Of a stretch of 64,000 nucleotides of DNA, positions 22,501 to 35,756 are shown piece by piece. The stretch is from contig NZ_CP088022.1 in the NCBI RefSeq assembly GCF_013373795.3, forward strand, positions 1,364,001 to 1,428,000. Reading direction: 5' to 3'. Within the stretch, counting starts at the first letter, position 1, and each line of letters starts with the position of its first letter. The translations under genes and the position numbers were made by a program. This stretch comes from Bradyrhizobium quebecense. GTDB taxonomy: Bacteria; Pseudomonadota; Alphaproteobacteria; Rhizobiales; Xanthobacteraceae. The notes under the pieces were generated by a model. That model searched no databases and was not told the origin of the DNA. It was given only the letters and a program-made list of their open reading frames with translations.

Positions 22501-22517
22501 TGGTATACAAAATACCA
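22501..22517. promoter_or_regulatory. GntR-type operator, site A (CBS gene)
   Basis: TGGTATACAAAATACCA, inverted half-sites TGGTAT and ATACCA with 5-base spacing, 33 bases before the CBS gene. A weaker relative, TGGTATCTGGCATCCCT, lies at 22643-22659. Confidence 0.65.
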
Positions 22518-22676
22518 ATTGTCAACGCGGCCGTTAGGGAAATCTACCACCAGGAAACCGCCGAAATAGGCAGAGTCGCTGACGTTTCAGACGATTGTGA
22601 CCTGGTGTGAGCGGGTTGGCCATCTGCCGTGCTTGGCGTATCTGGTATCTGGCATCCCTGTGCTCCCCAAACGAAA

Positions 22677-22698
22677 GAGGCGCACCGAAGTGCGCCTC
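22677..22698 (-). terminator. intrinsic terminator of the first OxlT-like gene
   Basis: GAGGCGCAC (22677-22685) pairs perfectly with 22690-22698. Read on the minus strand it has a TTCG tetraloop and is followed by TTTCGTTT. Confidence 0.7.
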
Positions 22699-22750
22699 TA
22701 TCAGTTCACCAGGAAGTCCCGAAATCAGGCCGGCATTTCAAGCCGACATT

Positions 22751-24070
22751 TCAGGCCGTCTTGGCATTCGTCGTGGTCTCGGCAGCGGCCGCGGCAGCCT
22801 CGTTCCCGTTGATGAAGGCGCGGCGCATCGGCTTGATCACGAACAGCGCCATCAGCGCCGCGGTGGCGTTGAGCGCGACCGCGATCACGAACACCGCCTG
22901 CCAGCCATAGCTGGCGGCAACGATGCTGGCGGCCGGCACCAAGAGCGCGGCGGTGCCCTTCGCGGTGTAGAGCATGCCGTTGTTGGTGGTCGCGAACTTC
23001 GAGCCGAAGGTGTCGCCGGAGGTCGCGGGGAACAACGAGTAGATCTCGCCGAACACGCCGAAATAGACCGCGGTCGCCAGCACGAACACCAGCGGGTTGT
23101 GGCCCCAGGTCGATAGGGTCAGCAGCATCAGCGCGCCGGTGCCGAACGCGATGAACATGGTGTGCTCGCGGCCGATATTGTCGGAGACCCAGCCGAAGAA
23201 CGGCCGTCCGAACCCGTCGAAGATGCGGTCGAGCGAGATCGCAAAGGTCAGCGCGGCCATCTGGAAGCCGGCGAGCGAGACCGGCGTAGTGGCGATCTTG
23301 TAGTCGTGCGCGATCGGCGCGATCTGCGCTGCCGCCATCAGGCCGCCGGAGGCGACCATCACGAACACCAGATACATCACCCAGAAGATCGGGCTGCGCA
23401 GCACCTGCGGCGGCGTGAAGTCGATCTTGGTCTGCGGCAGGTTGAGCTGCTTTTTCTTCGGCGGGATCGTGACCGCAGGCTTCTGGATGAAGAAGGCGAG
23501 CAGGAACACGATCAGGCCTTGCCCGATGCCGAAATCGAAGAACGCGGTCTGATAGCCGCTCGAGGCGATCATGTTGGCAATCGGCACCACGGTGAGCGCC
23601 GCGCCAGCGCCGAAGCCCGCGGCGGTTGCGCCGGCGGCGAGGCCGCGGCGATCGGGAAACCATTTCAGCGCATTGCCGACGCAGGTGCCGTACACCGAGC
23701 CGGCGCCGATGCCGCCGATGACCGCCGCGGCGTAGAGCAAAGTGAGTGAATCCGCGTAGGAGTTCAGCACCCAGGACAGCGTGATCATGACGCCGCCGAA
23801 CATGATGACGATCCGCGGGCCGTATTTGTCGACGAACCAGGCTTCGACCGGCACCAGCCAGGTCTCGGTCACCACGAAGATCGTGAAGGCGAACTGGATC
23901 GCCGCGCGGCCCCAGTGATGCGCGCCGTCGATCGGATCGACGAACAGCGTCCAGCCATATTGCAGGTTCGCGATCATCGCCATGCAGACGATGCCCATGA
24001 CGAGCTGCAGCCAGCGGAAGCCACTGGACGAAGGTTGTGCTTGTGTTGCGGCAGCATTGCTGGAAACCAT
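22751..24070 (-). CDS. OxlT-like oxalate/formate-type MFS carrier 1
   Basis: A 439-residue MFS protein with twelve membrane segments, starting MVSSNAAATQAQPSSSGFRW behind GGGAGGA. OxlT-family marks: QYGWTLFVDPI in TM1, FAFTIFVVTETWLVPVEAWF, VDKYGPRIVIMFGGVMITLS, YGTCVGNALKWFPDRRGLAAG and FATTNNGMLYTAKGTAALLVP. OxlT exchanges oxalate for formate. Linked to oxalate by family and by the shared operator at 24156. Residues for substrate binding were not verified position by position. Confidence 0.82.
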   Translation of the reverse strand: MVSSNAAATQAQPSSSGFRWLQLVMGIVCMAMIANLQYGWTLFVDPIDGAHHWGRAAIQFAFTIFVVTETWLVPVEAWFVDKYGPRIVIMFGGVMITLSWVLNSYADSLTLLYAAAVIGGIGAGSVYGTCVGNALKWFPDRRGLAAGATAAGFGAGAALTVVPIANMIASSGYQTAFFDFGIGQGLIVFLLAFFIQKPAVTIPPKKKQLNLPQTKIDFTPPQVLRSPIFWVMYLVFVMVASGGLMAAAQIAPIAHDYKIATTPVSLAGFQMAALTFAISLDRIFDGFGRPFFGWVSDNIGREHTMFIAFGTGALMLLTLSTWGHNPLVFVLATAVYFGVFGEIYSLFPATSGDTFGSKFATTNNGMLYTAKGTAALLVPAASIVAASYGWQAVFVIAVALNATAALMALFVIKPMRRAFINGNEAAAAAAETTTNAKTA

Positions 24071-24155
24071 CAAATCCTCCCGAGCGCGCCTGGTCTTGTT
24101 GTGACCCAGTGTCGCAATTCTTGTGGCGTATCGTCGCAAGCGCTTAACGGGAGAT

Positions 24156-24172
24156 TGGTATACTATATTCCA
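24156..24172. promoter_or_regulatory. GntR-type operator, site B (carrier 1)
   Basis: TGGTATACTATATTCCA, 86 bases before the carrier gene. Same layout as sites A, C and E, one mismatch in the right half (ATTCCA for ATRCCA). Confidence 0.6.
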
Positions 24173-24259
24173 GAAAGCAAGCCCATCTTTCTGCTGCATT
24201 GCAGCAAAACTGGCATACGACGCGCCCATTCGGACTGCTCGTGAACGCCGAAAATGAAA

Positions 24260-24279
24260 CGCCCGGCGTTGGCCGGGCG
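24260..24279 (-). terminator. intrinsic terminator of carrier 2
   Basis: CGCCCGGC (24260-24267) pairs with GCCGGGCG (24272-24279); on the minus strand it is followed by TTTCATTTTC. It follows the stop of carrier 2 at 24309. Confidence 0.65.
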
Positions 24280-24308
24280 CTCTCGTCAGCGGAAGATTGG
24301 CGCGTTGC

Positions 24309-25604
24309 TTAAGCCATCGCCGCCGATTTCGCGACCACGATTTTCCGCCACGGCTTGAGCACGGCGATCGCGAGCAGAGAGGCAAGGATGTTGGCGCCGG
24401 CTGCGATGATGAACACGTTGTCCCAATGGCCCGACGACTGCTGCATGTAGTTGGCGATCGGCACCAACAGCGCGGCGGTGCCTTTCGCGGTGTAGAGCAG
24501 GCCCGCATTCGTGGTCGCGAACTTGGCGCCGAACGTGTCGGTGCAGGTCGAGGGGAACAGCGAATAGATCTCGCCCCAGGCAAAGAACACGAAGCCCGAG
24601 AGCAGCACGAACCAGACCGGGTCGTGGCCCCAGAGGTAGAGCATCCAGATGCCGAAGCCTTCCATGCCGAAGGCGATGAACATCGTGTTCTCGCGGCCGA
24701 TCATGTCGGAGATCCAGCCGAAGAACGGACGCGTCAGACCGTTGAGGACGCGGTCGATGGTGGCCGCGAAGGTCACGGCCGTCATCGTCACCGCCATCAG
24801 CGTGACCGGCACGCTGTCGACCTTCCAGTCGACCGCGATCGGCTTCAGGTTCGCCGTCACCATCAGGCCGCCGGCGCCGACGATCACGAACATGAAGTAC
24901 ATCAGCCAGAAGATCGGCTGCCGCAGCACTTCGGTCGGCTGATAGTTGCGCCGGGTCTGGATGATGTTGGCGTTCGCCACGACGGCCGGCACCTGACCGG
25001 CCTTCGGCGAGAGCAGGAAGAAGGCGAGCAGTACGATGATGATGCCCTGGCCGAGACCGAAATAGAGGAAGGTGGTCTGGAAGCCGGAGTCCTTGATCAT
25101 CGCCTGGATCGGCGCGACCGTGAGTGCGGAGCCCGCGCCGAAGCCGGCTGCGGTGATGCCCGCCGCAAGGCCGCGCTTGTCGGGAAACCATTTCAGCGCA
25201 TTGCCGACGCAGGTGCCGTAGACGCCGCCGGCGCCGATGCCGGCGATGATCATGCCGAGATAGTAGCCGTTCAGCGAGGTCGCCTGCGCGTTGATCGCCC
25301 ACCCGATCGCGCAGAGGATGCCGCCGATCAGCACGACGAGGCGCGGACCGTATTTATCGACGAACCAGCCCTCGACCGGCACCAGCCAGGTCTCGAACAG
25401 CACGAATAGCGTGAAGGCCCACTGGATCGATGCACGATCCCATCCGAACTTCTTCTGGATGTCGGGGACGAAGAACGTCCACCCGTATTGATAGTTTGCG
25501 ATCATCACCATCGCGGCGACGCCGATCGCAAGTTGCGTCCAGCGATAGGTATCGCTGACACGCGCGGCCGCGGGCGCCGCAGTTGCCTGAACCATGTCCG
25601 ACAT
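24309..25604 (-). CDS. OxlT-like oxalate/formate-type MFS carrier 2
   Basis: A 431-residue MFS protein, twelve membrane segments, starting MSDMVQATAAPAAARVSDTY behind GGGAGGA. It shares long blocks with carrier 1 (QYGWTFFVPDIQKKFGWDRA, WLVPVEGWFVDKYGPRLVVL, YGTCVGNALKWFPDKRGLAAG, FFAWGEIYSLFPSTCTDTFG). Two tandem carriers with separate operators and terminators suggest either different affinity or different exchange partners. Function by family: oxalate/formate exchange. Confidence 0.85.
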   Translation of the reverse strand: MSDMVQATAAPAAARVSDTYRWTQLAIGVAAMVMIANYQYGWTFFVPDIQKKFGWDRASIQWAFTLFVLFETWLVPVEGWFVDKYGPRLVVLIGGILCAIGWAINAQATSLNGYYLGMIIAGIGAGGVYGTCVGNALKWFPDKRGLAAGITAAGFGAGSALTVAPIQAMIKDSGFQTTFLYFGLGQGIIIVLLAFFLLSPKAGQVPAVVANANIIQTRRNYQPTEVLRQPIFWLMYFMFVIVGAGGLMVTANLKPIAVDWKVDSVPVTLMAVTMTAVTFAATIDRVLNGLTRPFFGWISDMIGRENTMFIAFGMEGFGIWMLYLWGHDPVWFVLLSGFVFFAWGEIYSLFPSTCTDTFGAKFATTNAGLLYTAKGTAALLVPIANYMQQSSGHWDNVFIIAAGANILASLLAIAVLKPWRKIVVAKSAAMA

Positions 25605-25658
25605 TGATCCTCCCAGTGCGCGCTTTGTCATTCTGCTTGTGGCGCGGCTGGGTCATAT

Positions 25659-25675
25659 TGGTATTTGATATGCCA
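25659..25675. promoter_or_regulatory. GntR-type operator, site C (carrier 2)
   Basis: TGGTATTTGATATGCCA, perfect match to TGGYAT-N5-ATRCCA, 55 bases before the carrier 2 start. Confidence 0.65.
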
Positions 25676-25764
25676 AGGTTCAAGCTGTCGCGGAGGTTGC
25701 GTGCGCTTATGCCGCAGAGAACTCGGGCGGTTACCGCAATGAGAGTAATTCAGCGCGCAAAAAA

Positions 25765-25787
25765 ATGGCCCCGAAAATCGGGGCCAT
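25765..25787 (-). terminator. strong intrinsic terminator of the 45-residue gene
   Basis: ATGGCCCCGA (25765-25774) pairs perfectly with 25778-25787 around a 3-base loop; read on the minus strand it is followed by a run of seven T. It lies 76 bases after the stop of the small gene at 25863-26000. Confidence 0.8.
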
Positions 25788-25862
25788 TGGTCGAAGGTTC
25801 AATATCAGGTCGCATCTTGCGACGAAACGGTCTTGGTGCCGCGCGCGCGGAATCATCTAGCT

Positions 25863-26000
25863 TCAGAGGCCGAAGTGCGGCAGGTCGCCATTGCGGTTGG
25901 AGATCTCCGCGCTCTTCATCAGCAGGCGGTCGATCGAGGCCATCAGGCGGCCGAACAGCGTGGAGGAGGGCGCGAGCGTGAGGGCAGTGGTCTTGGACAT
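25863..26000 (-). CDS. 45-residue small protein of the oxalate regulon
   Basis: Reads MSKTTALTLAPSSTLFGRLM, continuing ASIDRLLMKSAEISNRNGDL and ending PHFGL. AGGGG sits six bases before the ATG. Its own promoter region carries a relative of the GntR operator (26060-26076) and it is followed by a strong terminator, so it is a complete single-gene unit. One amphipathic helix at residues 14-33. The helix followed by a short D-L-x-x-F/I-G-L ending recalls DUF1127 proteins, without their arginine richness. Function unknown. Confidence 0.65.
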   Translation of the reverse strand: MSKTTALTLAPSSTLFGRLMASIDRLLMKSAEISNRNGDLPHFGL

Positions 26001-26059
26001 TGGTGTCCCCTTTGGCTGGAGGGCCAGCAACGGGCCGGCTCATCATCTGCAGCCAAATT

Positions 26060-26076
26060 ATGTATACCAGATGCCA
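26060..26076. promoter_or_regulatory. GntR-type operator, site D (45-residue gene)
   Basis: ATGTATACCAGATGCCA agrees with site E2 (TGGCATACCAAATGCCA) at 13 of 17 positions; the right half ATGCCA is perfect, the left half is weak. 60 bases before the small gene. Confidence 0.5.
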
Positions 26077-26284
26077 GAGACAACGGGCTTGTTTGCATAG
26101 CAGCATGGCGGATTGTGCAATGCAACAAGACTGGTGGGTTGGCATCCCAGATTGAAGGGGGGAGCGCATTGAAACCACGGCCAAGTCCAGGTAAGCGCGG
26201 GTCTTCACCAAGCCCGGGAATCGTGCCGCTCGTGTGCGCCGCATTTCAATGTGGCCGACCGACGTCGTCGCTGCCGTCATAAAG

Positions 26285-26308
26285 AAGGCCGCCTGACGGG
26301 GCGGCCTT
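26285..26308 (-). terminator. intrinsic terminator of the DUF2147 gene
   Basis: AAGGCCGCC (26285-26293) pairs with GGCGGCCTT (26300-26308); on the minus strand it is followed by CTTTAT. Confidence 0.55.
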
Positions 26309-26363
26309 GAGTGACTGGGTTTGCTTTTCTTCTTGGCCGATGAAGGGTCGGGGCCAGATCCCT

Positions 26364-26870
26364 TCACCGCGTCCAGTCTTCGCCGGCGCACAGCGTTCCC
26401 ATGCAGCCGCGAACGTTCAGCGTGCCCGACGACACCAGCGTCACCGAGCTCTCATAGGTCTTGCCGTCATCGGCGTTGTAGATCCTGCCGGCCCATTTGT
26501 TCGGGCCTGCGGGGTGCATGTTGATGAAGAGCGAAATGCCCATCACCGGCCGGGTCCGCTGCGCGGGATCGGCATTCTTGTCGTCGCGTTGCGGCTTGCC
26601 GGTGGCCTTGTCGGTCGGCTCCTTCAGCCAGACGACGCGGCCGCACAGCGCGCTGCCGCAGCGCTGGACCTTGATCCTAGCGTCGCCGGACTGGGTGAGC
26701 CAGACGCCGGCCGGATCGTTGGCCTTGTCGGCGGCTTTGGCGGCATCGGCGGCGCTGCCGAGCAGCGGAATGTGGAACGCTGCCACGATCAGGCGGCGCG
26801 TGAGGTGCGCGTGGATCAGCTGTTTCAGGGCGCTGCGGAGGCCGTCAATATCTGGGGGTAACGTCATCAT
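26364..26870 (-). CDS. DUF2147-family exported protein
   Basis: A 168-residue protein. The mature part is the DUF2147 beta domain: GVWLTQSGDARIKVQRCGSA, LCGRVVWLKEPTD, AGRIYNADDGKTYESSVTLV, LNVRGCMGTLCAGEDWTR. A hydrophobic stretch near residues 27-42 precedes an AAD-AAKA region and probably acts as signal peptide, although it begins unusually late; an internal start is possible. Function of the family is unknown. Promoter contains overlapping TTTCATGA palindromes. Confidence 0.75.
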   Translation of the reverse strand: MMTLPPDIDGLRSALKQLIHAHLTRRLIVAAFHIPLLGSAADAAKAADKANDPAGVWLTQSGDARIKVQRCGSALCGRVVWLKEPTDKATGKPQRDDKNADPAQRTRPVMGISLFINMHPAGPNKWAGRIYNADDGKTYESSVTLVSSGTLNVRGCMGTLCAGEDWTR

Positions 26871-26879
26871 CCACCTTCT

Positions 26880-26909
26880 TCATGAAAAATTTCATGATAA
26901 ACATGAAAT
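26880..26909. promoter_or_regulatory. two overlapping TTTCATGA palindromes before DUF2147
   Basis: TCATGAAA-AA-TTTCATGA (26880-26897) and ATTTCATG-ATAAA-CATGAAAT (26889-26909) share the middle half-site, giving three half-sites within 30 bases right before the DUF2147 start. An operator for an unknown regulator is likely. Confidence 0.5.
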
Positions 26910-26995
26910 AAATCACGTTTAAGGTTGAGTCAACAACATTACCGCAGCATGATGCGGCCGGCCGTAACGGCCTGTATGGGCAAAAAAATTATCGG

Positions 26996-27562
26996 ATGGA
27001 TGTGATGAGGAAATCGGTTCGCGAGCAGCGCCAGCTTTGGTTTCGCCGGCTCGATCGGGCGTTCTGGGTGATCTGGGCCGCGCTGCCGGTCGTGCTGTGG
27101 CTGGCCTATTACCGCACCACGACGGCTCCGGTCACGATTGCGGAAAGCTTGAGCGGCGAGCAGGCGAAGTGCGCCAGCATCGTCGCCAACCCGCTCACCA
27201 TGTCGACCATGGGCCAGCTGCTGTTCTGGTCGCTGTTTGCGCTTGGGGTATCGTTTTACGCCGTGCTGATCGGCATGCTTCATCGCATGGTGAACCGATT
27301 CGCGAACGGCCGGATTTTTGTCTCCGAGACACTGCAGGGCGTCTGGTGGATGGGGATCTTTCTGGTGGTCTGGCCGTTCGTCGATACGATCACGACCAAC
27401 GCGGTGATCTATGTCCTGTATCGGATCGGAGACATCAGGTTCCTGCTGCTGAACTACAACCTCGATGTCGGCACCATCGCCGGCGGTGTGTTCCTGATGG
27501 CGCTGAAGTTCGTGCTCGAGCACGCCATCCTGTTGCAGTCCGAAAACGATCTGACGATCTGA
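26996..27562 (+). CDS. DUF2975-family membrane protein
   Basis: A 188-residue protein with four membrane segments (FWVIWAALPVVLWLAYY, LLFWSLFALGVSFYAVLI, WWMGIFLVVWPFVDTIT, GGVFLMALKFVLEHAIL). The end ALKFVLEHAILLQSENDLTI is the DUF2975 ending. Start at 26996 or the in-frame ATG 27005; neither has a strong site. It is followed after 5 bases by an XRE regulator, the standard partner of DUF2975 genes. Confidence 0.75.
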   Translation: MDVMRKSVREQRQLWFRRLDRAFWVIWAALPVVLWLAYYRTTTAPVTIAESLSGEQAKCASIVANPLTMSTMGQLLFWSLFALGVSFYAVLIGMLHRMVNRFANGRIFVSETLQGVWWMGIFLVVWPFVDTITTNAVIYVLYRIGDIRFLLLNYNLDVGTIAGGVFLMALKFVLEHAILLQSENDLTI

Positions 27563-27567
27563 GGGTG

Positions 27568-27813
27568 ATGCTCGTGCCCATCGTGGTGAACCTCGATGTC
27601 ATGCTCGCAAAGCGCAAGCGCCGCCTCGGAGATCTTGCGGACGCGATCGGCATCTCGATCCAGAACCTGTCGATCCTGAAAACCGGCAAGGCCAAGGCGA
27701 TGCGCTTCTCGACGCTGTCGGCGATCTGCCGCGAACTGGACTGCCGCCCGGGGGACATTCTGGAATATGTGCCGGGCGATGAGGGTGAGGCCGAAGGCGG
27801 CGAGGGGGGCTAA
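27568..27813 (+). CDS. XRE-family (YozG-like) regulator paired with DUF2975
   Basis: An 81-residue protein starting MLVPIVVNLDVMLAKRKRRL. The helix-turn-helix LGDLADAIGISIQNLSILKT and CRELDCRPGDILEYVP are the Cro/C1 type of small YozG-like proteins. Starts 5 bases after the DUF2975 stop, so the two are translated together. Likely DNA-binding control of its own operon. Confidence 0.8.
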   Translation: MLVPIVVNLDVMLAKRKRRLGDLADAIGISIQNLSILKTGKAKAMRFSTLSAICRELDCRPGDILEYVPGDEGEAEGGEGG

Positions 27814-27870
27814 TGGCTTGCTGATTGCGCGAGCACCGAGGTTGGACCGGCCGCCAAAATCGGCTGATCT

Positions 27871-27923
27871 GTGCTCGCCGAGCAGCGGCGAATGGGCGAC
27901 CTCGCTCGGCGAATCCGGCAGCG
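27871..27923 (-). pseudogene. short fragment of a class III CoA-transferase gene
   Basis: On the minus strand this reads LPDSPSEVAHSPLLGEH, almost the same as [20 protein letters not shown] of frc (around 31810-31860). About 53 bases match; nothing else of the gene remains. It is a relic of a duplicated frc-like gene. Confidence 0.7.
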
Positions 27924-28091
27924 TGCGATGCCCGGCGGCGAAGCGGATTTGGCTTCTCGGATGCCTTCAAGTCCGCTTGTGACCCAACGGACATGCCGAC
28001 CTTGTCTTACTTGCTTCGACCGAGCGTGGTAAAATATCCGGGGATTGCGGTGCTCGACCGACCCTATCAATCCTTCTCTTGGGAGAGAAAA

Positions 28092-28598
28092 GTGCATTTG
28101 CGAGTGGCTCTTGCCGCATGCGCCATTGCGGCTTTTGGATCGTTCACGATGACATTCGACGCGCTGGGCCAGACATCGTTCAAAGAGCAATTGGTGGGCA
28201 CTTGGACGCTGCTTTCGTGGGAGCAGAAGAAAGGCGACGGCACCAAGGTCGAGCGTTATGGGACCAGCCCGAGGGGCATCGCCTTCTTTGATGCGGGTGG
28301 CCGGTACATCATCACGGTGATGCGACCAGATCGAGCCAAATACGCGAGCAATGCCTTGTGGCAAGGCACCCCTGAGGAAAACAAAGAAACGGCCGACGGC
28401 ACGATAACCTACTTCGGAACGTATTCAATAAACGAGGCAGATAGCAGCATCGCAATCAACGTCGAAGGCAGTTCCTTTCCAAACTGGAATGGCACTGATC
28501 AGAAGCGCTTCGTTGCGATTGCGGGAGACCGACTGACGCTGACCGTTCGTCCTCCGGCTGGAGACGTAGTCGACGTGATTTGGAAGCGAGCGGAGTAA
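28092..28598 (+). CDS. lipocalin-like exported protein
   Basis: A 168-residue protein, GTG start at 28092 behind GGGAGAG. Signal peptide MHLRVALAACAIAAFGSFTM to about residue 27. The mature part has the lipocalin-like pattern: LVGTWTLLSWEQKKGDGTKV, YGTSPRGIAFFDAGGRYIIT, YFGTYSINEADSSIAINVEG, LTLTVRPPAGDVVDVIWKR. These domains bind hydrophobic ligands. No operon partner. Confidence 0.75.
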   Translation: MHLRVALAACAIAAFGSFTMTFDALGQTSFKEQLVGTWTLLSWEQKKGDGTKVERYGTSPRGIAFFDAGGRYIITVMRPDRAKYASNALWQGTPEENKETADGTITYFGTYSINEADSSIAINVEGSSFPNWNGTDQKRFVAIAGDRLTLTVRPPAGDVVDVIWKRAE

Positions 28599-28888
28599 TT
28601 GAACCTCACGTCAGCTCTTAACCCGAAGCGATCATCAGGGCGACAGCGAGAGTTCTTGCGCCAACAGGGAAAATGATTGCTGATGATCTCACCGACACGC
28701 GGCGGGATCGGACCGATTCGTATTCCGGATGCTGCCGCGCGTAGTGTACCATCGCTGTTAGGTCAATGGTGCTGCCCGATGGCCCCTCGTTCCGAAGTTG
28801 GCTAGCGCCTCTCTACTCACGATCGTGTGGCCATGTTTTGGTCAAAACTGCGTCCGCATTCTTGAGATGCCCACTGCAAAGGCTCGCG

Positions 28889-31492
28889 ATGGAAAGGGCA
28901 AGGTTCGCCAAGGCCAGGATTTTCGCGTTTGGCGACGCTCGGAGCGTTGCGACCTACGCGGTCGAAATCCTGATAGTTGCCACAATTTACGCTGGTCTTG
29001 CCGAATCCGCGCGATTGCTTCCCGCAATAAATCCAGCCGCGACACCGCTATGGCCACCAACCGGGCTTGCGCTCGCGCTGGTCCTGCTGCGCGGCTACCG
29101 GATCTGGCCCGCGATCCTGGTAGGGGCTCTCTCACCTTACCTCATGGCCGACCGATCGCTCCTGGAGATCGGCGCCGCCGGGATCGGCAGCCTCCTTGCC
29201 GCATGTGCCGGGACATGGCTGATCGGCCGCTGGTCGAACGGTCGGCGGGCGTTTGCCACACCGTCCGGTGTCGCAAAGTTTGCAATCATTTCCTTTGCGC
29301 CGACCACGATCATCAGTTCAGCCATCGCCTTGGCCGGCTTCACGCTCATCAACGAAGCAAGCTTTTCCGATTCCGTCGTCGCCGGGTTGACCTGGTGGCT
29401 TGCGGACGCTGCTGAGGCCCTGGTGATTGCTCCGGTCATCGTGCTCTGGGCGACGATGCCCTTACGCATTGCTTCCAAATGGGCTCTGTTGGAATCGATC
29501 ACGGTCGCTGCTCTCGCTGGTATCATCGGGCTCGCTGCTTACAGCCCGCTGATCGGTAGCGATCTCGTCAGCAACGGGCTCGACGTGTCGCTGCCACATC
29601 GCAGCCTTCTGGGCTTTCTGGTTCTGCTGCCCTTGATCTGGGCCGGCCTGCGCGGCGATCGATGCACCGTGGCGACGGCCGCCTTGATTTTCATCGGAAC
29701 TGCCGTGTGGGGGTTCTCGGTGGGAAATGATCCATTTCCGAAAATCGATCCGAACGGAGCGCTGTTATCCTTGTTCGTGCTTTCGATCATCGTGTCGGCG
29801 CCTCCTCTTGCCCTCGCCGCGGCAAGCGCGACGCGCCAGGCCAGGGAAGCCCATTTGCTTTCCGTCCAGGACCAGCTGAACAGTCAACTTGAACGGAAAG
29901 GTTTGGCACTCGACAGCATCAGACGGCACTTCCAGACCCTCATCGAAGGCGTTGTCGACTATGCAATTTTTGCGCTTGATCGGGAAGGGCACGTCACGAG
30001 CTGGAATAGCACTGCTCAAAAGATCATCGGCTACACCTCGGAAGAAATCATAGGCAAGCACTTCGGGATATTCTATCGGCCGGATGAACGCCGCGCGGGT
30101 TCACCGACACACGCGCTGGAGTCAGCAATCGAAGGCGGCAAGTACGACGTAGAGGGTTGGCGTATCAGAAAGAATGGTACGCCGTTTTTCATCACGGGCT
30201 CAGTCTCTTCGAGCCGTGACGACGCAGGAAATCTGATCGGCTTTATCAGTATCCTGCGCGACGCGACGGAGCGGCGCGACGCGGAGGAGAAGCTGGTCCA
30301 GGCGCGCGAACAGCTCGCGATGTCTCAGAAGATGGAGGCAATCGGCAAGCTGACTGGCGGGATCGCACACGACTTCAACAATCTATTGATGATCATCGGA
30401 GGAAGTGCCCAGATATTTCAACGCCTGCTTGATCCAAAACTGCCAAAGGCCATCGAAGCCATTCAAACCGCGGCCAAACGCGGCGAGAGTCTCACGCGCC
30501 AATTGTTGACGTTCTCTCGTCACCAGCATCTCAGCCCGACGGTCGTTGATCTGAATGCGTCCATCAAGAACATGCGGACCATGATTGAGAGCTCGCTGCG
30601 CGGGAACATCGTGTACAACGAGAATGTTGGCGACGGTGTTGCGCCGGTAAAGGTTGACCTCGCCGAACTTGAACTTGCGATCGTCAACATCGCCGTCAAT
30701 GCGCGAGATGCAATGACAAGCGGCGGCACATTCACGTTGTCCGTCCACGCGGTCACCGCCAATCAGGAAACCGGCGGCGATCGCCGTGGGAAGGCCTTCT
30801 TTGCGATCACACTTGGCGATACGGGCACCGGTATTCCGCCAAATCTGCTGTCCAAGATGTTCGATCCGTTTTTCACGACCAAGGAGGTCGGCAAGGGGAC
30901 CGGGCTCGGTTTGTCCCAGGTTTATGGTTTTGCGCACCAGGCGGGCGGAACCGTGACGGCAGACAGCAAGGTCGGACAGGGAACAACGATTACAATCTAT
31001 CTGCCGTCCTGTGCGGACGAGCAGATCACCAGCAAAGAGCTCGCCGCTGCCCGGGCAAGGCCAAGCCAGCCGCCGCGGCAGACGGTTCTCGTTGTCGACG
31101 ACAGCCCCGAAGTGGCGGATGTGACATCCTCGCTGTTCGAGCATCTGGGTTATGAAACCATCTACCGAGACTCGGCCGAAGCGGCATTGAAGTTGCTCGA
31201 TACGGGTACAAAGATCGATCTCGTCTTCAGCGATATCGTCATGCCAGGGACCATCGATGGCGTCGGGCTCGCGAGAGAAGTTCGGTCGCGATACCCCGGT
31301 TTGCCCATAGCCCTTACAACCGGTTACAGCGATGCCGCAAAAGCAGCTCCGCCAAGTCTAAGAATACTCCGCAAGCCGTTCGATACCGAGGCACTGAGAG
31401 ATTTTATCCAGGATCTTGCGCCTCCGAGATCGACACGATCATCCGGCGCACCCTTGGCGTCAAGCACCGCCGACGCGGTGCGCAGGAGTTGA
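28889..31492 (+). CDS. MASE1-PAS hybrid sensor histidine kinase
   Basis: An 867-residue protein starting MERARFAKARIFAFGDARSV, with AAAGG before the ATG. Order: MASE1 membrane sensor (about 20-310, eight or so segments, with LWPPTGLALALVLLRGYRIW and TWWLADAAEALVIAP), linker helix, PAS (about 350-465), dimerisation/phosphoacceptor helix with H494 (LTGGIAHDFNN), ATPase domain (LGDTGTGIPPNLLSKMFDPF, TGLGLSQVYGF), and a C-terminal receiver with D782 (LVFSDIVMP). Signal unknown. Overlaps no operon partner, so it probably works with an unlinked regulator. Confidence 0.9.
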   Translation: MERARFAKARIFAFGDARSVATYAVEILIVATIYAGLAESARLLPAINPAATPLWPPTGLALALVLLRGYRIWPAILVGALSPYLMADRSLLEIGAAGIGSLLAACAGTWLIGRWSNGRRAFATPSGVAKFAIISFAPTTIISSAIALAGFTLINEASFSDSVVAGLTWWLADAAEALVIAPVIVLWATMPLRIASKWALLESITVAALAGIIGLAAYSPLIGSDLVSNGLDVSLPHRSLLGFLVLLPLIWAGLRGDRCTVATAALIFIGTAVWGFSVGNDPFPKIDPNGALLSLFVLSIIVSAPPLALAAASATRQAREAHLLSVQDQLNSQLERKGLALDSIRRHFQTLIEGVVDYAIFALDREGHVTSWNSTAQKIIGYTSEEIIGKHFGIFYRPDERRAGSPTHALESAIEGGKYDVEGWRIRKNGTPFFITGSVSSSRDDAGNLIGFISILRDATERRDAEEKLVQAREQLAMSQKMEAIGKLTGGIAHDFNNLLMIIGGSAQIFQRLLDPKLPKAIEAIQTAAKRGESLTRQLLTFSRHQHLSPTVVDLNASIKNMRTMIESSLRGNIVYNENVGDGVAPVKVDLAELELAIVNIAVNARDAMTSGGTFTLSVHAVTANQETGGDRRGKAFFAITLGDTGTGIPPNLLSKMFDPFFTTKEVGKGTGLGLSQVYGFAHQAGGTVTADSKVGQGTTITIYLPSCADEQITSKELAAARARPSQPPRQTVLVVDDSPEVADVTSSLFEHLGYETIYRDSAEAALKLLDTGTKIDLVFSDIVMPGTIDGVGLAREVRSRYPGLPIALTTGYSDAAKAAPPSLRILRKPFDTEALRDFIQDLAPPRSTRSSGAPLASSTADAVRRS

Positions 31493-31658
31493 CCGGTCGC
31501 ACCATTGCGGGCATTGCTCGGCGGTACTGCAGTGATCGAACAGGCTATTGTCGCAAAAGCTGAATGGGTTATCCGCATCTCGCCCTGGGCAGACATGTGG
31601 CTCGAGCTCATCAATGTCCGCCATTGATGCGGAGGTCAGACGAGCAGCCGGAACAAAA

Positions 31659-31682
31659 ATGGCCGCGGTTGTCCGCGGCCAT
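31659..31682. terminator. bidirectional terminator between kinase and frc
   Basis: ATGGCCGCGG (31659-31668) pairs with 31673-31682, TTGT loop; flanked by a run of A on the left (T-run for the frc operon) and TTTGTCGTTTT on the right. Confidence 0.75.
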
Positions 31683-31708
31683 TTGTCGTTTTGATTGAGC
31701 GCAGGCCG

Positions 31709-32986
31709 TTATTCGGCCGCCTGCTTGCGCGGCGGATCGAGCGCGCCGGAGTCGTGGATCTCGGCGACCTGGTGATCGCTGAAGCCGAGCACCTCGCGCA
31801 GGATCTCGTCGGTGTGCTCGCCGAGCAGCGGCGAGCGGGCGACTTCGCTCGGCGAATCCGACAGCTTGATCGGGTTGCCGACCGAGATGTACTTGCCGCG
31901 GGTCGGGTGGTCGACCTCGACTACCGTGCCGGTCGCACGCAGCGACTGGTCCTCGATGATCTCCTTCATCGACAGGATCGGGCCGCAGGGGATGTCGTCC
32001 CTGTTCAGGATCTCCATGGCCTCGAACTTGGTCTTCGTCATCGTCCACTTTTCGATGCGCGCGAAAATCTCGTTCAGGCGCGACAGGCGGGCCGGCGGCT
32101 TGGCGTAGTTCGGATCGGTCTTCCAGGTCGGCTCGCCGATCACGTCGCAGATCTTCTCCCAGACCGGCGCCTGGGTGATGAAGTAGAGGTAAGCGTTGGG
32201 ATCGGTCTCCCAGCCCTTGCACTTCAGGATGCGGCCGGGCTGGCCGCCGCCGGAATCGTTGCCGGCGCGCGGCACCGCGTCGCCGAACGGGATGCCTTCG
32301 CCGTACTGGCTGTATTCCTTGAGCGGGCCGTGGGCGAGGCGCTGCTGGTCGCGCAGTTTGACGCGGGCGAGGTTGAGCACGCCGTCCTGCATCGCCGCGG
32401 TGACGCGCTGGCCCTTGCCGGAGTGGGTGCGGTGATAGAGCGCGGTGACGATACCGAGCGCGAGGTGCAACCCGGTGCCGCTGTCGCCGATCTGCGCGCC
32501 GGTGACGAGCGGCAAGCCGTCGCGGAACCCGGTGGTCGAAGCGGCGCCGCCGGTGCACTGCGCGACGTTCTCGTAGACCTTGCAATCCTCATACGGGCCG
32601 GGGCCGAAACCCTTGATCGAGGCGACGATCATCTTCGGGTTGATGCTCTGGATCTTCTCCCAGGGGAAGCCCATGCGATCGAGCACGCCGGGGCCGAAAT
32701 TCTCGACCAGCACGTCGCACTGCTTGATCAGCGCGGTCAGCACTTCCTTGCCCTTCGGGTTCTTGGTGTCGAGCGTGATCGAGCGCTTGTTGTGGTTCAG
32801 CATGGTGAAATACAGGCTGTCCACGTTCGGGATGTCCTGCAGCTGGCCGCGCGTAATATCGCCGACGCCGGGACGCTCGACCTTGATCACGTCGGCGCCG
32901 AACCAGGCCAGCAATTGCGTGCAGGTCGGACCCGACTGGACGTGGGTGAAATCGAGAATGCGAACGCCCTTGAGCGCCTTGGTCAT
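31709..32986 (-). CDS. frc: formyl-CoA:oxalate CoA-transferase
   Basis: A 425-residue class III CoA-transferase. It moves CoA from formyl-CoA to oxalate, giving oxalyl-CoA. It keeps the family blocks [59 protein letters not shown], the catalytic Asp at 168 ([19 protein letters not shown]169 in Oxalobacter numbering) and the glycine-rich loop [11 protein letters not shown] 32986 follows GGAG; an upstream ATG at 33019 is less likely. It follows oxc by 61 bases in one operon. The Oxalobacter enzyme has similar length (about 428 residues). Confidence 0.93.
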
Positions 32987-33047
32987 ATCTATTGCTCCGT
33001 ACTCTGTCTGCCCCTGCACCCGCAGGGAGTGATTGGGGTTAGGGGGG

Positions 33048-34787
33048 TTACTTCTTCTTGTTCAGTGCGCTTTGCGGATTGAGGTTGCCGATGCGGCCGC
33101 TCTCCGAGCCCGCCGCCGGGTCGATGACGGCGTTGATCAAGGTCGGCTTGCCGGAATCCAGCGCCGCATTGACCGCGCGCTTCAGCTCGTCGGGCGAGGT
33201 GGCGTTGACGCCGACGCCGCCGAAGGCTTCCATCATCTTGTCGTAGCGCGAGCCCTTGACGAACACGGTGGTTGCCGGATCCTCGCCCTCGCTGTTGACG
33301 TCGGTGCCGCGATAAATGCCGTCATTGTTGAAGATCACGACGCAGATCGGCAGCTTGTAGCGGCAGATGGTCTCGACCTCCATGCCGGAGAAGCCGAACG
33401 CGCTGTCGCCTTCGACCGCGAGCACGGGCAGGCCGGTCTCGACCGCGGCCGCGATCGAATAGCCCATGCCGATGCCCATCACGCCCCAGGTGCCGACGTC
33501 GAGCCGCTTGCGCGGCTTGTGCATGTCGACGACGCCGCGGGCGAGGTCGAGCGTGTTGGCGCCTTCGTTGACGAAGATGGTGTCCGGACGTTCCGCGATG
33601 ATCGTGCGCAGCGCGCCGAGCGCGCCGTGATAATCCATCGGCGAGGCGTTGTTCATCAGCTTCGGCGCCATCTTGGCGACGTTGTCGTCGCGCTTCTTCG
33701 CCACGGTGGCGAGCCAGTCGCCCGGTGCGGCCGACCAGTTGGCGCCCATGGCGTCGAGCAAGGCGGACACGCAGGAGCCGATATCGCCGACCAAGGGGGC
33801 GACGATCTCGACGTTGGAATCCATTTCCTTCGGCTCGATGTCGACCTGGATGAACTTCTTCGGAGCTTCACCCCAGGTCTTGCCCTTGCCGTGCGAGAGC
33901 AGCCAGTTGAGGCGGGCGCCGATCAGCATGACGACGTCGGCTTCCTTCAGCACGGTCGAGCGCGCCGCACCCGCGCATTGCGGATGCAGATCGGGCAGCA
34001 GGCCCTTGGCCATGCTCATCGGCAGGAACGGTACGCCGCTCTTCTCGACGAAATTCTTGATCGCCTCGTCGGCCTGCGCGTAGGCCGCGCCCTTGCCGAG
34101 GATGATCAGCGGGCGCTTTGCGTTCTTCAGCACGTCGAGTGCACGCTTGACCGCCGACGGGGCAGGGAGCTGCGCCGGCGCAGCATCGATCACCTTGACC
34201 AGCGACTTCTCGCCGGCCGCCGCGTCCATGACCTGGCCAAACAGCTTTGCGGGCAGGTCGAGATAGACGCCGCCCGGACGGCCCGACACCGCGGCGCGGA
34301 TCGCGCGGGCAAGGCCGATGCCGATGTCCTGGGCGTGCAACACGCGGAACGCCGCCTTGCACAGCGGCTTGGCGATCGCGAGCTGGTCCATCTCCTCATA
34401 GTCGCCCTGCTGCAAATCGACGATCTCGCGCTCGGACGAGCCCGAGATCAGGATCATAGGGAAGCAGTTGGTGGTGGCGTGGGCCAGCGCCGTGAGGCCG
34501 TTGAGGAAGCCGGGCGCCGACACCGTGAGGCAGACGCCGGGACGCTTGGTCAGGAAGCCGGCGATCGAGGCCGCATAGCCGGCATTCTGCTCATGGCGGA
34601 ACGAGAGCACGCGAATGCCCGCCGCCTGGGCCATGCGGCCCAGGTCCGTGATCGGGATACCCGGCACGCCATAGACGGTGTCGATGCTGTTGAGCTTGAG
34701 CGCATCGATGACGAGGTGGAAGCCATCGGTCAATTCTTGCTCGGTGCCCGGTGCCTCGGACTTCGTAGCGGTATTCAGCATCGGCAT
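33048..34787 (-). CDS. oxc: oxalyl-CoA decarboxylase
   Basis: A 579-residue TPP enzyme that splits oxalyl-CoA into formyl-CoA and CO2, feeding Frc. Seen: the TPP-activating Glu in [20 protein letters not shown], the PYR domain motif [20 protein letters not shown], the central domain, and the TPP-binding [20 protein letters not shown] with [12 protein letters not shown]. Starts [10 protein letters not shown] behind GGGAGA. Second gene of gntR-oxc-frc; the promoter lies in front of gntR with operators E1/E2. Confidence 0.95.
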
Positions 34788-34868
34788 CGTCTCCCTGATC
34801 GTTCTTTGTTCGGACGATCTGATCGTCGTCTGAAGCGGGTGTGGACTCTCAAACTTACGTGATCGGTT

Positions 34869-35600
34869 CTACGTGAATAATTCTTGGCCGTGCGCCTCGA
34901 CATAGGCGGCGAGGCCGAGCGTGTGATCGCGGGCACGCTTTTCGGCGAGCTCGGTGTCGCGCGCTTCCAGTGCCTCGATGATCCCGAGATGCTCGGGCAG
35001 CGAGGTCGCGGTGCGGTCCTTGCGGCCGATCGTGAGCTGGCGATAGCCGCGCACATGCAGCAGCAGGTCATTGGTGAGATCGACCAGGACAGGTGATTCC
35101 GACAGCGAGATCAGCGCCTGGTGGAAGGCGATGTTGGCCTTGGAATATTCCTCGACGTGATCCTGCGGCAGGCGGTCGTCGCTGAAGTCCTTGAAGAAGT
35201 CGCGCAGCGCCGAGATGTCCTTCTTGCGCGCGGTGGTCGTGATCAGGCGCGCCGCCATGCTCTCCAGCGCTGCCCAGGCGCGGATCATGTCGACGATCTC
35301 CGCCTTGGTGCGGCGGACCACGACGATGCCGCGGCGCGGCACGGTCTTTACGAATCCGTCCTGCTCGAGCATCGCGATCGCTTCGCGGATCGGCGTGCGG
35401 CTGACGCCGAGACGCTCGGACAATGCGCGCTCGTCGAGCATCACCGGCTCCGGCGTCGCGTAGATGTCCATCTTCAGAATCGCTTCTTTCAAGGCCTCAT
35501 AGGCCTTGTTCTTGAAGCTCGTCTCCGGCGCGATCCGGACGATGGCGATATCTGTGTCAGCCATGGTGGGTGACGCCTTGGTCTGTTTCGGTTCTGGCAC
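34869..35600 (-). CDS. GntR (FadR/FCD) regulator of the oxalate genes
   Basis: A 243-residue protein. The winged helix (about 30-95: ALSERLGVSRTPIREAIAML, GFVKTVPRRGIVVV) is followed by an FCD ligand domain with its metal-binding pattern (IAFHQALI near the middle, LPEHLGIIEALEARD). GTG start at 35600 behind AGGAGGAG. It heads the gntR-oxc-frc operon and faces the acyl-CoA synthetase gene. The 17-bp TGGYAT-N5-ATRCCA motifs in this intergenic region and at four other promoters are probably its binding sites. Ligand likely oxalate or a CoA ester, by inference. Confidence 0.87.
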   Translation of the reverse strand: MPEPKQTKASPTMADTDIAIVRIAPETSFKNKAYEALKEAILKMDIYATPEPVMLDERALSERLGVSRTPIREAIAMLEQDGFVKTVPRRGIVVVRRTKAEIVDMIRAWAALESMAARLITTTARKKDISALRDFFKDFSDDRLPQDHVEEYSKANIAFHQALISLSESPVLVDLTNDLLLHVRGYRQLTIGRKDRTATSLPEHLGIIEALEARDTELAEKRARDHTLGLAAYVEAHGQELFT

Positions 35601-35657
35601 GACTCGTCTCCTCCTCTTGGAGACGTCTTCTTAGCAGAAGAAAGTACCTTAGATTTT

Positions 35658-35674
35658 TGGCATGCCAAATACCA
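35658..35674. promoter_or_regulatory. GntR-type operator, site E1
   Basis: TGGCATGCCAAATACCA, full match to TGGYAT-N5-ATRCCA, 57 bases before the gntR start. Confidence 0.7.
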
Positions 35675-35739
35675 TAATGTCAAGCTGCCCATATTTTTCG
35701 GTATTTTTGCACGTCGACCGACCTTGACAATTACGTTTT

Positions 35740-35756
35740 TGGCATACCAAATGCCA
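35740..35756. promoter_or_regulatory. GntR-type operator, site E2
   Basis: TGGCATACCAAATGCCA, full match, 25 bases before the acyl-CoA synthetase start and 82 bases from E1, so each of the two divergent promoters has its own copy. Confidence 0.7.

Follow-up and report, generated by a model that had tools for sequence, protein, structure and literature searches.

Are the promoters of an oxalate gene cluster in Bradyrhizobium quebecense controlled by one regulator through one operator? The question is raised by a stretch of 64,000 nucleotides (contig NZ_CP088022.1 of assembly GCF_013373795.3, positions 1,364,001 to 1,428,000 of the forward strand), hereafter the window, in which a gene for a GntR-type regulator is found together with oxc and frc (oxalyl-CoA decarboxylase and formyl-CoA transferase), two oxalate/formate carriers (OFA1 and OFA2), an acyl-CoA synthetase gene (acs), a gene for a two-CBS-domain protein (CBS) and a frame of only 45 residues. 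An earlier note on this DNA had proposed that a 17-bp operator, TGGYAT-N5-ATRCCA, links six promoters of these genes into an oxalate regulon. The best overall explanation, to which we give a probability of roughly 0.8, is that these are predicted operators at which an FCD-type GntR protein, the product of the gene at 34869-35600, would control an oxalate regulon. The shared operator and the oxalate focus hold in several genera, and the regulon extends beyond the window (fdsBA, sucCD, tctCBA and a second CBS gene). The regulon is real, a known class of regulator with a new set of targets, and the finding is stronger and wider than was first stated, although the surprise is moderate, since FCD regulators of carboxylate catabolism are common.

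Predicted operators in the window, the genome and the genus

All six sites were found in the window, four of them exact matches, one (OFA1) with one mismatch and one (the 45-residue gene) with two, lying 32, 85, 27, 59, 57 and 25 bp from the starts of CBS, OFA1, OFA2, the 45-residue gene, gntR and acs, respectively. Their placement within 90 bases of a start codon is correct if gntR starts at GTG 35600; counted from an in-frame ATG near 35564, the distance is about 93 bp. At up to two mismatches the window has 10 matches, while 100 shuffles averaged 3.93 and none gave more than 8; the four matches beyond the six, at 22643, 27950, 47512 and 54233, have two mismatches each. Scanning the complete 9.17-Mb genome gave seven exact sites, four of them in the window, and 37 at up to one mismatch versus 10 for the reversed pattern. 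The three exact sites outside the window lie before sucC (L075), between an iclR gene and a second CBS gene (L062), and inside a called coding frame (L007), the last one being taken as chance.

Close relatives of the regulator (90-100% identity) are present in 59 of 60 genomes of the genus, and 98 of 119 genomes of the family have a match, divided into a close group of at least 79% identity (nine genera, Bradyrhizobium included) and another of 47-59%; order-wide, a relative at E<=1e-60 appears in 26 of 150 genomes. Exact sites outnumbered reversed ones by 115 to 3 in 20 genomes of the genus and by 54 to 1 in 12 genomes of eight other genera with an orthologue, while 12 genomes without a close orthologue have 12 versus 2, with none at all in six of them. 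The two of these 12 that have no relative at E<=1e-30 (G103 and G078) have zero exact sites. The objection foreseen in the earlier note, that the motif might occur at many unrelated promoters, does not apply, as 92 of the 115 exact sites in the genus adjoin oxalate-regulon genes in our hand tally; among the other 23, 13 are the exact 17-mer of a site seen in context elsewhere (for the one at G031:5911739, of a gntR site) and 10 lie elsewhere.

Conservation of the operator at each gene

We compared 41 loci, namely the window and 40 homologous loci of about 20 kb each from 39 genomes (one of which provided two). Each gene was scored by its best match no farther than 220 bp from the estimated start, at up to one mismatch unless stated, using as background controls the reversed motif and the genes oxc, frc and the neighbouring NMO. 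The promoters of orthologous clusters have kept the sites gene by gene: gntR in 41/41 loci, CBS in 25/25 homologues, OFA1 in 14/14, OFA2 in 20/21 (the exception is a 45%-identical carrier in L047) and acs in 29/34. At the 45-residue gene a site was found in 4/24 copies at one mismatch and in 24/24 at up to two, 46-85 bp upstream, and it reads exactly TGGCATCTGGTATACAT in 14 of them, from three genera, so that the site regarded as weak in the earlier note is a conserved variant of the predicted operator.

No site was found at oxc (0/35), frc (0/42) or NMO (0/16), and the reversed motif gave zero for every gene except one encoding an FAH-family protein (1/12). That oxc and frc have no sites is what one would expect if they are transcribed from the gntR promoter in one operon, gntR-oxc-frc, in which an operator of their own would be unneeded. 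Genes for a 2-dehydropantoate 2-reductase-like protein (KPR) and for the FAH-family protein were rejected as separately controlled members, given their sites in 1/21 and 0/12 homologues; several loci have them behind CBS, with which they probably share a promoter.

Operator architecture and fit to the promoter

The N5 spacer of the earlier note is not free, and the site is more than a simple palindrome. Positions 7-11 are constrained (T8 in 82, G9 in 66, G10 in 97 and T11 in 87 of 110 pooled sites) and the pooled site reads TGGYAT-N-tGGTATRCCA, that is, a FadR-type GTATRC core, whose GT and AC stand 2 bp apart, and a TGGYAT half-box 7 bp upstream. Compared with the GT-N2-3-AC core of such regulators, GT or GC occupies positions 10-11 in 94/110 sites (strict GT in 79/110), with 16/110 departing. 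A consensus core with extra half-boxes at 7-12 nt is how the FadR subfamily is portrayed in PMC4494728.

A -35-like TTG begins 7-9 bp before the operator in 104/111 pooled sites of CBS, OFA1, OFA2, the 45-residue gene and gntR, and the base 4 bp past the operator is T in 70/111. Reading the promoter boxes of the window by eye, CBS, OFA1 and OFA2 follow TTGnnn-N17-CAnnnT with the operator filling the promoter spacer, and the operator of the 45-residue gene takes up the 17 bp that separate a -35 from a -10-like box. The gntR operator follows its -35 likewise, and that of acs is reversed, 10 bp after TTGACA. The operator seems to fit the -35/-10 gap exactly.

The gap between gntR and acs shows a further arrangement in L016, L017, L018, L021, L023 and other loci, where an exact site and a mismatched one overlap by 10 bp; this double operator, TGGCTTCTGGCATACCAAATGCCA in L016, is near-symmetric, and the window has none such.

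Members outside the window

A site precedes fdsB-fdsA, encoding an NAD-linked formate dehydrogenase, in 15 genomes, and 10 of the 20 genus genomes of the exact-site scan carry it. The best score of FdsA, a partial protein, was with TIGR01591, below its cut-off. In Bradyrhizobium diazoefficiens, blr2316, an arabinose-induced 'NADH-ubiquinone oxidoreductase chain F' (PMC5996035), was dropped as candidate fdsB. The formate dehydrogenase alpha gene in PMC4070659 is bll3136, next to bll3137, which that paper calls NuoF, so that bll3137 is the likelier fdsB.

A tripartite-type transporter, tctCBA (named by eye from its sequence), has sites in three loci (L022, L115 and L218), located 130, 247 and 205 bp before the called frame, with the tctC start farther in. 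It was not seen in the cluster of the window, and a site directly before tctC was rejected, with 0/19 homologues from 18 loci having one within 220 bp. One locus of another family (L205) has gntR-oxc-frc-fdsB-fdsA on one side and, facing it, tct genes and acs; two sites, one exact and one with a single mismatch, lie in between. The second CBS gene of the B. quebecense genome (L062, C1:3611000-3616500) is followed by KPR-like and FAH-family genes and is divergent from iclR-gcl, with two motif sites between them.

A site also precedes sucC, within the mdh-sucC gap, in 14 genomes (the sucC product of L077 scores above the succinate-CoA ligase beta cut-off). Being a gene of the tricarboxylic acid cycle, sucC could belong to another FCD regulator of central metabolism instead of the oxalate regulator, and the B. 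quebecense genome also has a one-mismatch site 160 bp upstream of an sdhC-like frame (L074:1557, C1:7122856). That 17-mer, however, appears at up to one mismatch in only 3/24 genomes, B. quebecense included, and sdhC was left as an unlikely member. The sucC site is of the same 17-mer class as the other regulon sites, and sucC neighbours the regulator or its sites in one further family (L199) and one further genus (L096/L097), as well as at a second location of the G015 genome (L090). The sucC 17-mer is not among the 12 exact sites of the genomes that lack a close orthologue, although in G096 a sucC-like gene does have a site in front of it (L102). We consider a separate regulator for sucC unlikely, though it deserves to be kept in mind.

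More distant clusters agree in part. Among 10 stretches with a less similar relative of the regulator (50-58%), seven have a site at up to one mismatch, in five of them at a gntR that precedes oxc-frc. Among 12 loci from other families, the sites adjoin gntR in L204, L205 and L208, a one-mismatch site lies upstream of gntR in L210, and in L199 and L206 the site is in front of a sucC-like gene or of a carrier gene. Five of the less similar clusters (L098, L106, L108, L110 and L111) show oxc-frc followed by a formyltransferase-like gene, recognised by eye, and another large gene.

The regulator and its proposed action

The GntR protein contains a GntR-type winged helix-turn-helix (PF00392, 47.9 bits, cut-off 27) and an FCD effector domain (PF07729, 78.5 bits, cut-off 24.3), and it falls short of the NanR NCBIfam model (64.9 versus 260) and of PhnR (TIGR03338, 97.3 versus 271.5); it has no equivalog. 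Its H160, H204 and H226 align with the metal-binding histidines of TM0439 (chains 3fms/3sxy in a PDB alignment) and are present in 65/65 regulator matches; the triad is named in PMC4746285. That this protein is the likely binder, as the earlier note suggested, is backed by comparative evidence across several genera; its binding, its inducer and the sign of its control are inferred.

We propose that GntR is a repressor that would block RNA polymerase at the operator between -35 and -10, its own operon gntR-oxc-frc included. Oxalate (or oxalyl- or formyl-CoA) would enter the FCD pocket, probably via a metal held by the three histidines, and GntR would then release the DNA. The carriers, the CoA-activating enzymes (frc, acs and sucCD), oxc and, in many relatives, formate dehydrogenase would come on together, and the CBS and 45-residue proteins, made under the same control, would probably tune the oxalate pathway.

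An activator, whose ligand-bound form would bind and recruit polymerase as CitO does with citrate, would have precedent, as the FCD proteins include activators (PMC4746285). We find it improbable here, since a dimer bound at the operator, which apparently sits between -35 and -10, would obstruct polymerase, and since gntR's own promoter also has the operator. The IclR-type regulator adjoining gcl (L062) has in its favour that IclR-family operators are often TGGAA-type palindromes and that sites lie between iclR and the second CBS gene or, in L090, sucC, but it is a very remote candidate and was rejected as binder at E<=1e-60, a threshold that a more diverged IclR could escape, because 13/20 genomes have no match, 11 of these 13 carry exact sites by regulon genes, and gntR has its own site in every one of the 41 loci.

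Several observations count against GntR as repressor of an oxalate regulon. FCD regulators can also activate (CitO, PMC4746285), and the promoter elements were read by eye, with weak -10 boxes (CANNNT), none of them convincing for gntR. Core position 11 is poorly conserved in the OFA2 sites (0.5 bits), five of the 34 acs homologues (L040, L041 and L043-L045) have no site within the limits used (both sites of the gntR-acs gap are kept there, farther off), the 45-residue gene is found in only 24/41 loci, and the fdsB site of B. quebecense itself has decayed to two mismatches. Four genomes with a relative of 47-59% (G099, G118, G085 and G082) lack any exact site, and the less similar loci L100, L107 and L111 as well as six of the 12 from other families (L200-L203, L207 and L209) have none at up to one mismatch. 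Neither oxc nor frc occurs in the stretches read of these six (L202 and L203 end at a contig edge just before gntR), and therefore not every relative is an oxalate regulator.

The CBS protein and the 45-residue protein

The proposal that these two proteins are tied to the oxalate regulon is upheld by the sites before all their copies, 25/25 for CBS and 24/24, at up to two mismatches, for the 45-residue gene, and both probably belong to oxalate metabolism. In three of the less similar clusters (L099, L107 and L109) a CBS gene, with 43-48% identity, is divergent from the regulator and beside a frc-like gene and carriers, which is a second predicted tie to oxalate. The 45-residue frame is probably a real protein, judging from its sequence: the stop is kept at codon 46 in 24/24 copies, and the median uncorrected ratio of nonsynonymous to synonymous differences (pN/pS) is 0.47. 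That ratio comes from 258 of the 276 pairs, those whose pS falls within 0.05-0.7, and their median pS of 0.50 is near saturation. It has 397 relatives at E<=0.01, and those named among the 120 matches listed are nearly all from Bradyrhizobium.

More tentatively, and with the odds somewhat against it, the oxalate regulator may join into one circuit the carriers, CoA activation (frc, acs and, for succinyl-CoA, sucCD), decarboxylation and formate oxidation with two dedicated proteins, of which CBS may sense adenylate or CoA state and the 45-residue peptide may act on a carrier or enzyme. Our literature searches gave no paper linking either protein to oxalate metabolism.

Features of the cluster

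The genes and predicted operators are collected in Table 1. No NCBIfam equivalog cut-off was reached by acs, and no RNA family was found at gathering thresholds between 21000 and 38000 of the window. Between frc and the carrier genes lies a MASE1-PAS histidine kinase with a receiver domain (28766-31492), which is probably an insertion, as a homologue is present in only 4/41 stretches, the window included.

The scans also returned a near-perfect palindrome, TGGTATCCTCGATACCA, and its variants in five genomes (L219:1507 in G050, G019:C1:465983, G031:C1:7582892, G054:C1:4531109 and G048:C3:73104). In G050, the only one read in context, it lies 23 bp before a frame resembling an ABC-transporter binding protein, and it is probably the site of another regulator.

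Table 1. Genes and predicted operators of the oxalate cluster (window positions; MFS, major facilitator superfamily; promoter boxes by eye)
Feature	Positions	Strand	Evidence
CBS, two-CBS-domain protein, 144 aa	22034..22468	-	Pfam PF00571, two stretches
CBS operator	22501..22517	-	exact match; TTGACA 22525-22520, -10-like CAGAAT 22502-22497, 17-bp spacer
OFA1, oxalate/formate MFS antiporter	22751..24070	-	TIGR04259, 646.5 bits, cut-off 335
OFA1 operator, TGGAAT type	24156..24172	-	1 mismatch; TTGCTT 24180-24175, CAATCT 24157-24152
OFA2, oxalate/formate MFS antiporter	24309..25631	-	TIGR04259, 647.6 bits, cut-off 335
OFA2 operator	25659..25675	-	exact match; TTGAAC 25683-25678, CAATAT 25660-25655
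45-residue protein	25863..26000	-	without NCBIfam or Pfam match
45-residue gene operator, TGGCATCTGGTATACAT	26060..26076	-	2 mismatches; probably overlaps -10
frc, formyl-CoA transferase	31709..32986	-	TIGR03253, 752 bits, equivalog cut-off reached
oxc, oxalyl-CoA decarboxylase	33048..34787	-	TIGR03254, 1026.2 bits, equivalog cut-off reached
gntR, FCD-domain GntR regulator, 243 aa	34869..35600	-	PF00392 and PF07729
gntR(-oxc-frc) operator	35658..35674	-	exact match; TTGACA 35683-35678
acs operator, core reversed	35740..35756	+	exact match; TTGACA 35724-35729
acs, NDP-forming acyl-CoA synthetase, 709 aa	35782..37911	+	PF13549, PF13607, PF13380, PF19045

Comparison with known systems

The oxc-frc oxalotrophy genes of Bradyrhizobium, the same pathway as in the window cluster, were reportedly treated by Koch et al. 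in 2014, who are also said to have found oxalate present in roots and nodules. As for the regulator, the closest likeness is with the FadR/FCD subfamily (UxuR, PdhR, LldR, TM0439), with which it shares the helix-turn-helix and FCD domains, the three metal-site histidines, the GT-N2-AC core and an extra half-box at 7 bp of the kind described in PMC4494728. It differs from that subfamily in its new oxalate targets and in having half-box and core as one 17-bp unit fitted into the promoter spacer, and the main text of PMC4494728 mentions neither oxalate nor Bradyrhizobium. NanR, the sialic-acid repressor of Escherichia coli, is also of the FCD family and has a repeat, GGTATA/TGGTATAW, similar to the TGGYAT box (PMC8012715 and PMC4494728), but NanR has direct repeats and here one half-box stands ahead of an inverted core. 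The citrate regulator CitO is an FCD protein that senses a small carboxylate through a bound metal (PMC4746285); CitO activates, whereas the oxalate GntR would repress.

In B. diazoefficiens grown on arabinose, frc, oxc and gcl are among the proteins detected, with oxc unchanged in the membrane fraction (PMC5996035). GntR is not mentioned in that paper, and its passages on these genes name no regulator or operator. No description of an oxalate GntR regulator or its operator was found in the open-licence literature searched.

Implications

These results provide a testable oxalotrophy regulon for nitrogen-fixing bacteria, and they offer the CBS protein and the 45-residue protein a first assignment to a function. 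They also predict that a tctCBA-type transporter, an NDP-forming CoA ligase, succinyl-CoA ligase and formate dehydrogenase would take part in the same response. The points of most interest are the CBS and 45-residue members and the link to sucCD.

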